Origin: Myxococcales bacterium
GTDB lineage: Bacteria; Myxococcota; Myxococcia; Myxococcales; JAJYLH01
Assembly (NCBI GenBank): GCA_021787845.1
Contig: JAJYLH010000026.1
Coordinates: forward strand, 1 to 64,000
Length of the DNA: 64,000 nucleotides
Direction: 5' to 3'
The position numbers and the translations under genes are program-made. Below the pieces are notes generated by a model. The model was not told the DNA's origin. It worked only from the letters and a program-made list of their open reading frames with translations, and made no database searches. This document shows positions 5,522-63,535 of this stretch, piece by piece (positions within the stretch are counted from its first letter, which is position 1; every line of letters starts with the position of its first letter).

Positions 5522-5628
5522 GTGGTGACGTTCAGGTTAGACGCGAACGTGCTCTTCACGGCGGCCAATCCGGAGAAGGAGCCGGAGGCGACGCTGCTCG
5601 ACTTGGGCGAGGCAGGGACCGTGGACGG
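5522..5628 (+). pseudogene. Remnant of a PIN-domain protein (N-terminal part)
   Basis: From GTG 5522 the frame reads FRLDANVLFTAA, then about 15 residues ending LLDLGEAG, which resembles the first strand and helix of PIN-domain ribonucleases (toxin-type), including the first metal-binding Asp. It then runs straight into a palindromic repeat and loses similarity; no other PIN motifs follow. I read it as the 5' stump of a gene cut by the repeat. It is short, so the match is suggestive only. Confidence 0.35.
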
Positions 5629-5715
5629 CTTGAGCCGTGGGCGTGAGCCCGCGGTTCCTAGCAACCACCCGCGTCGCAGACAGGGACCGCGGGCTGACGC
5701 CCGCGGCTCAAGCCC
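5629..5715. repeat. Palindromic element (GCCGCGGGCGTGAGCCCGCGG family)
   Basis: GCTTGAGCCGTGGGCGTGAG at the left is answered by GGCTGACGCCCGCGGCTCAAG at the right, an 87-bp inverted repeat. A left half with about 50 bp of similar sequence recurs at 32571. Confidence 0.8.
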
Positions 5716-5750
5716 TCGCGAAATAGGCGATCGGCCTTTTCGGCGAGGGT

Positions 5751-6095
5751 CTAGCGCGTGACCATCGTCGCTTCCACGCACGTCGGACCCTTGTCGGGGA
5801 GATCCTTGCAGCGGTAGACGCCGTTGTTGTGGGGGTCGCTCGAACGGATGAAGACCCATTGCGCCGGTTCGGTACCGAGCGACCTCGAGCCCTGTATTAA
5901 TCGTTGCGAGAGTATCTGCACCTCGCATCATCAGTCGTGGCACGGGCGTCCCCGCCCGTGTAGCCTTCGTTGTGGCTTTCACGGGCGAGGATGCCTGTGC
6001 CACGAGACTCCGACTGCGACTACTTTCGCAACGATTGATACCGTCGCGCAGGCGGCGGTGAGAGCGACCGCGAAAACGATCAGCCAGCGACCCAT
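5751..6095 (-). pseudogene. Small lipoprotein gene split by a 146-bp inverted-repeat element
   Basis: On the minus strand the ATG at 6095 begins a clean lipoprotein signal peptide (MGRWLIVFAVALTAAC). Eighteen residues in, the sequence enters the 146-bp element at 6040 and an in-frame stop follows inside it. On the far side, 5894 down to 5751, the same frame reads a credible C-terminus (FIRSSDPHNNGVYRCKDL, then a Cys-containing end and a stop). The two parts look like one former gene for a small Cys-containing lipoprotein. The parental family is not recognised. Confidence 0.6.
5895..6040. mobile_element. 146-bp MITE-like element, copy 1
   Basis: The element is bounded by TATTAATCGTTGCG and CGCAACGATTGATA, imperfect terminal inverted repeats, and contains an inner palindrome GGCACGGGCGTCCCCGCCC. 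An inverted copy of identical length with only a handful of base differences lies at 63390-63535. It has no coding capacity, so if mobile it would depend on a transposase elsewhere. It interrupts the lipoprotein gene at 5751-6095. Confidence 0.8.
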
Positions 6096-9482: not shown

Positions 9483-9503
9483 CGGTGCGGAGTGGCGGAT
9501 ACT

Positions 9504-9597
9504 TGTGGCACGGGCGTCCTCGCCCGTGGAAGTCCAGCCGAACCCACAGGCATGGAAGCTTCCGAAGCGCTCACGGGCGAGGACGCCCGTGCCACGA
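9504..9597. repeat. Palindromic element (GTGGCACGGGCGTCCTCGCCC family)
   Basis: GTGGCACGGGCGTCCTCGCC is answered by GGCGAGGACGCCCGTGCCAC. The same module forms the core of the 146-bp elements at 5895 and 63390, here without their terminal repeats. Confidence 0.85.
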
Positions 9598-32570: not shown

Positions 32571-32631
32571 GGGCGTGAGCCCGCGGTTCTTGGCAATCAC
32601 CCGTGTCACAGGCAGGTATTAATCGTTGCGC
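32571..32631. repeat. Joined half-elements: GCCGCGGGCGTGAG half and MITE end
   Basis: 32571-32615 repeats the left part of the element at 5629 for about 50 bases; directly after it TATTAATCGTTGCG (from 32618) repeats the terminal repeat of the 146-bp element. The same two element families are neighbours at 5629-6040, about 180 bases apart. Confidence 0.75.
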
Positions 32632-32686
32632 AAACAGCTGCACCGCAGATGGGACTCGGTAGTGCCGGCCCTCTGGCCCGGCGCGA

Positions 32687-32977
32687 CTTCTCGAAGCACA
32701 GCAGGAACAGCTCGGGACCGCCGCGAACGACTTCCATCAGGCATACAAGACCAAGCCCGAAGACCAGAAGAAGCTCAACGAGAAGACCCAGGAGCACGAC
32801 GACGCCGTGGCCGAGCTGCGCGAGATGACCAAGTGCATCCGCGAGCTCGGCTACGCCGCCCTCCGCAACGACCCCCGCCGCAGCCAGTTCGACCGGTACA
32901 AGCCCAAGACCAAGCCGAAGCCGAAACCGGCGCCCGCCGTCGAGCCGCCTCCCGAGACCGCCGAGGCGAGCAAGTAG
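32687..32977 (+). pseudogene. 5'-truncated gene, C-terminal part of a charged helical protein
   Basis: An open frame reads about 95 residues to a TAG at 32975. It starts inside repeat sequence and has an in-frame stop at 32660 and no plausible start codon. The retained part has a charged coiled-coil-like region (DQKKLNEKTQEHDDAVAELR), a C-x-I-x-E-L-G-Y segment and a KPKTKPKPKP tail ending in ETAEASK. Codon bias fits a real gene. The 5' part appears to be lost to the repeat cluster at 32571-32686. Confidence 0.55.
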
Positions 32978-63389: not shown

Positions 63390-63535
63390 TATTAATCGTT
63401 GCGAAAGTGGTCGCAGTCGGAGTCTCGTGGCACAGGCATCCTCGCCTGTGAAAGCCATAACGAAGGCTACACGGGCGGGGACGCCCGCGCCACGACTGAT
63501 GATGCGAGGTGCAGATACTCTCGCAACGATTGATA
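63390..63535. mobile_element. 146-bp MITE-like element, copy 2 (inverted relative to copy 1)
   Basis: Starts TATTAATCGTTGCG and ends CGCAACGATTGATA; same length as 5895-6040 and nearly identical on the opposite strand. Confidence 0.85.

Follow-up and report, generated by a model that had tools for sequence, protein, structure and literature searches.

RUP, a 107-bp element of Streptococcus pneumoniae, is proposed to be mobilised by IS630-Spn1 (PMC3049150, PMC2229807). Its size class, non-coding nature, IS630-like ends and TA target duplication, together with about 100 copies and reported gene disruptions, liken it to the 146-bp repeat described here, element A (PMC3049150, PMC2229807). RUP has a high AT content, short ends and an IS partner in its own genome, whereas A is GC-rich, carries 20-bp ends around a REP-like hairpin-derived interior and has no partner in its assembly. 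The Correia/NEMIS repeats of Neisseria, grouped with the IS630-derived MITEs, resemble A in length (about 107–155 bp), in inverted ends with a terminal TA and in duplication on insertion (PMC2229807, PMC2817692). Their sequence is unrelated to that of A, and a REP doublet interior is not described for them in the passages drawn on here.

The IS885/ISAzo32 group of IS630 elements shares with A the TA termini and ends of the form TAYTAA...GAAAGTA, 13–15 of the 20 terminal positions being identical. These elements are autonomous, with a transposase gene of their own, whereas A has none. The GTAG-15 dimers of Anabaena variabilis, like the interior of A, are REP dimers within a longer TA-ended palindrome (PMC3733652), but the sequences differ and the outer palindrome is not linked to IS630 in that paper. 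Element A adds to an already known kind, the IS630-type MITEs. A burst of such MITEs in Myxococcota was not found by literature search, and A adds one, probably in this phylum, whose empty sites form a clear set.

The window analysed is a stretch of 64,000 nucleotides (C109:1-64000) from an assembly of 6.24 Mb in 153 contigs. Element A and the repeats related to it occupy the following positions in the window:

5895 to 6040, no strand assigned: element A (MITE copy 1), 146 bp including the TA at each end
5895 to 5914, plus strand: left terminal inverted repeat, consensus TATTAATCGTTGCGAAAGTA, resembling IS630 ends
6021 to 6040, minus strand: right terminal inverted repeat
5895 to 5896, no strand assigned: TA target duplication, left copy; a single TA stands at the empty sites of other copies
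6039 to 6040, no strand assigned: TA target duplication, right copy, from the occupied/empty comparison of other copies
5935 to 6005, no strand assigned: core of A, two inverted GTGG-headed REP-like hairpins (5935–5960 and 5980–6005)
9503 to 9597, no strand assigned: free-standing pair of GTGG-headed hairpins, related to those in the core of A
32617 to 32687, plus strand: partial copy of sister family B, with the same end type and a different REP-like hairpin core
63390 to 63535, no strand assigned: MITE copy 2, in the opposite orientation to copy 1; it occupies the TA within the GTAG head of a GTAGGATGGACNGTCC repeat

The 20-bp ends of A are TATTAATCGTTGCGAGAGTA and TACTTTCGCAACGATTGATA. Its arms are 90% complementary, and as DNA it forms a strong fold (z = −9.8). 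The insertion adds 144 bp net if one TA is taken as the target. The original prediction described a 146-bp element without an encoded transposase and with an inverted, near-identical second copy of the same length; this was confirmed in every part, the two copies being 96% identical. The size of the family, its REP-doublet cargo and the site of copy 2 in the GTAG head of another repeat had not been part of that prediction.

Free-standing pairs elsewhere in the genome have the core hairpins too, with 26 bp of complete identity and partly matching spacers; the interior of A is a shortened copy of such a free-standing GTGG-headed REP-like hairpin pair. Rather than an IS remnant, most of the interior is thus an inverted hairpin pair of a type that the genome also has in free form.

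A BLAST search of the genome itself gave about 40 full or near-full matches; 40 of 188 candidates were scored, and all 40 proved to be copies or large parts of copies. Copies that spread recently number at least 30 to 40. When up to two mismatches are allowed, the 15-bp end pattern is present 121 times (66 + 55) in the 6.24-Mb assembly, far more often than chance would give; the reversed pattern used as a control does not occur on either count (0 + 0). Among the loci read, 27 distinct copies have exactly 146 bp; three of them equal the consensus, and the median is two differences. The family is the product of a recent burst, and the recent movement proposed earlier for the pair in the window is borne out at the family level. 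Insertion sites are mostly non-coding: 38 of 43 family junctions fall below the 5% level of in-gene positions. Many copies are truncated or nested in other repeats, and those of 317–410 bp consist of A plus another inserted repeat. A was absent from 40 relatives, from 195 genomes of the phylum and from the plasmids searched, and a search for its end pattern gave no match in the 144 further genomes of the order; within this range it is known from one genome only.

Several copies depart from the common structure. In one (L094:1582-1727) the core is flipped relative to the ends, which suggests inversion within the palindrome. Five copies (L077, L079, L081, L082, L083) keep the left end and the core and lack the right end, and two of them continue into flanks resembling those of the free-standing hairpin pairs, which suggests recombination between A and such pairs. 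In four loci (L088, L089, L090, L091) a repeat with CTGCTTATCGGGTT-like ends lies inside the terminal repeat of A, bounded by a 9-bp duplication (TCGTTGCGA); the 9-bp site is identical in all four, in both orientations, and could reflect either repeated targeting or a single composite mobile as a unit. In L087 (C18:30128-30537) A carries an insertion of a further hairpin repeat (CTGGGTATCCAGACATCTCAGG...), with an apparent 9-bp duplication TGTGCCACG.

Target sites were examined by joining the flanks of copies computationally and searching for the resulting empty site. Flanks vary between copies; immediately before the TA a G is favoured, and immediately after it a C, giving GG-TA-CC. Where copies are nested, the pre-insertion site in other repeats has a single TA. 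The best case is copy 2, for whose host repeat five unoccupied relatives were found, each with a single TA in CCAG-TA-GGATGGACAGTCC or nearly so. In L025 the copy lies inside a tandem repeat, the neighbouring repeat representing the empty site. In L030, A is inside B and B inside a C-type repeat, and unoccupied C-type relatives have GCGCGGTGCCGC for GCGCGGTACCGC. These comparisons are direct proof that TA is duplicated on insertion.

IS630 partners with matching ends were located in other genomes. When about 85,000 species genomes were scanned with the end pattern, three contigs of one acidobacterial assembly (PMV_1.51) were retrieved, each of which breaks off roughly 100 bp inside an element whose ends are exactly those of A; the opposite end of this element is TATCAATAGTTGCGAAAATA. 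In the same assembly a related end, TATTAATTGTTGCGCAAGTC, is followed directly by an IS630 transposase frame (L153), which is open to the contig end and, cut there, is seen with its left end only. Its protein matches DDE_3 at 1.9e-34 and the NCBIfam family transpos_IS630 at 230 bits (cut-off 100). Plasmid relatives of this protein (39–44% identity), namely IS885, ISAzo32 and elements of Pandoraea, Cupriavidus and Rhodococcus, show the end pattern TAYTAA...AAGTA. The remainder of the second acidobacterial IS, searched for in 396 genomes, gave only itself and a chance 19-mer. The pattern matches L143–L145 from genome contigs and the single viral match L179, in an RNA-phage replicase frame, were judged to be chance.

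A matching IS630 transposase in the same genome is usual for an IS630-type MITE and is not strictly required. PF13358 (DDE_3) had no match in the genome that carries A, and no intact IS630 gene was found in its assembly by profile search or by tblastn with the acidobacterial transposase, the latter returning only a decayed IS630-like frame at C92:220448. The partner transposase may have been lost or may lie in sequence missing from the 153 contigs.

Element A is short, non-coding and multicopy, of near-constant length, with conserved terminal inverted repeats, TA duplication and ends matching those of IS630, in agreement with the MITE originally proposed. The insert is very probably a non-autonomous IS630-type MITE with a REP doublet as cargo, which we infer to be served by a transposase in trans. 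An IS630-family DDE transposase, the presumed mover of A, would bind the 20-bp ends, excise the element and direct it into a TA dinucleotide, preferably within GG-TA-CC, so that the TA is duplicated. IS630-type ends would earlier have come to flank a REP doublet and then have spread it. Among 60 hit base-pair cells of the hairpin, 43 are broken and none shows a compensating change, as expected of a parasite decaying after its burst.

At 5895–6040 the insertion would probably have cut short a small lipoprotein gene behind its 19th codon. The two parts of this putative gene are:

6041 to 6095, minus strand: N-terminal part of a putative small lipoprotein gene, start at 6095, signal-peptide-like
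5751 to 5894, minus strand: C-terminal part of this putative gene, in frame with the N-terminal part and ending with a stop at 5751–5753

From the ATG at 6095 a signal-peptide-like frame (MGRWLIVFAVALTAAC...) is read on the minus strand and stops inside A after 38 codons; beyond A this frame resumes at 5894 and stays open as far as the stop at 5751. Any net insertion of 144 bp, equal to 48 codons, leaves the frame unchanged, so this in-frame resumption is no independent evidence for a gene. The two parts could also be chance open frames around an intergenic insertion, the MITE being real and no gene broken. Long chance frames arise in GC-rich DNA, the family junctions lie mostly outside genes, and searches of 145 genomes of the order gave no orthologue or paralogue of the lipoprotein, nor did Pfam/NCBIfam give a match; the best orthologue candidate (E 0.04) has an unrelated context and was rejected. 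Against chance frames stand the signal-peptide-like start, a GC3 of 0.84 over 67 codons versus 0.58 and 0.54 at codon positions 1 and 2, and a position directly after, and on the same strand as, an upstream S9-peptidase-like gene. By codon usage the C-terminal part is the best of six frames, reaching only about the 95th percentile of off-frame DNA; the N-terminal part ranks second among its six. An intergenic insertion is a real possibility, on balance the less probable one. Disruption of a lipoprotein gene by A, as originally proposed, is plausible and somewhat more probable than not.

The REP-like interior raises another origin for the repeat. Heads of the type GT(A/G)G are a mark of RAYT-associated REPs (PMC2817692), and A could be a RAYT-mobilised REP element (REPIN/BIME), in which the hairpins are the mobile unit and single strands are moved by a Y1 tyrosine transposase. 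The genome does contain a RAYT gene at C24:50422 (L095; NCBIfam REP_Tyr_transpos, 81.2 bits, cut-off 80) with hairpin pairs on its flanks, and the core of A is an inverted GTGG-headed pair that is also found free. However, the pairs on both sides of the RAYT gene belong to a different repeat (GTAGGATGGACAGTCC), and what moves in A extends beyond the hairpins to the outer 20-bp inverted repeats, where it ends, and duplicates TA. Y1 transposition makes no target duplication. Of the two transposase types suggested in the original prediction, an IS630-type enzyme fits, and a RAYT does not fit the termini and the TA duplication. Spread of A by a RAYT is very unlikely; such an enzyme may account for how the core arose, though not for the dispersal of the 146-bp unit. 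A second Y1-transposase-like gene, below the Pfam cut-off, lies at C84:47305 (L096), flanked by GGAGCCGGACACG hairpin repeats, and copy 2 of A splits the GTAG head of a GTAGGATGGACAGTCC-type repeat.

Under the IS630-type MITE reading, the sister family offers a parallel. Family B has A-type ends around a GTAG-headed hairpin pair, and this pair also occurs without these ends. One IS630 end type could, tentatively, have captured REP doublets at least twice, with GTGG hairpins in A and GTAG hairpins in B, giving doubly mobile repeats spread by an IS630 transposase, no matching RAYT having been seen in the genome. This suggests that REP-type hairpins could spread without a transposase of their own.

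That the repeat is retained because it serves the cell (as terminator, mRNA stability element or protein-binding site), its number reflecting selection, is the least probable reading and barely credible: the strong fold (z about −10), the mostly non-coding positions and copy 2 lying about 35 bp past the stop codon of a response-regulator-like gene would suit it, but the hairpin has no compensating changes, truncated and nested copies are numerous, the element occurs in one genome only, no Rfam family matches at gathering score, and no evidence of a cellular role was seen.

In annotating genomes of this type, part of the short lipoprotein-like frames and of the Rfam-like hairpins would have to be read as mobile-element debris. 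Beside element A, at 5624–5717 of the window, a free-standing inverted hairpin pair weakly matches the Rfam family Acido-Lenti-1 (21.6 bits, against a gathering score of 37), and Acido-Lenti-1 may itself be a mobile-hairpin family.
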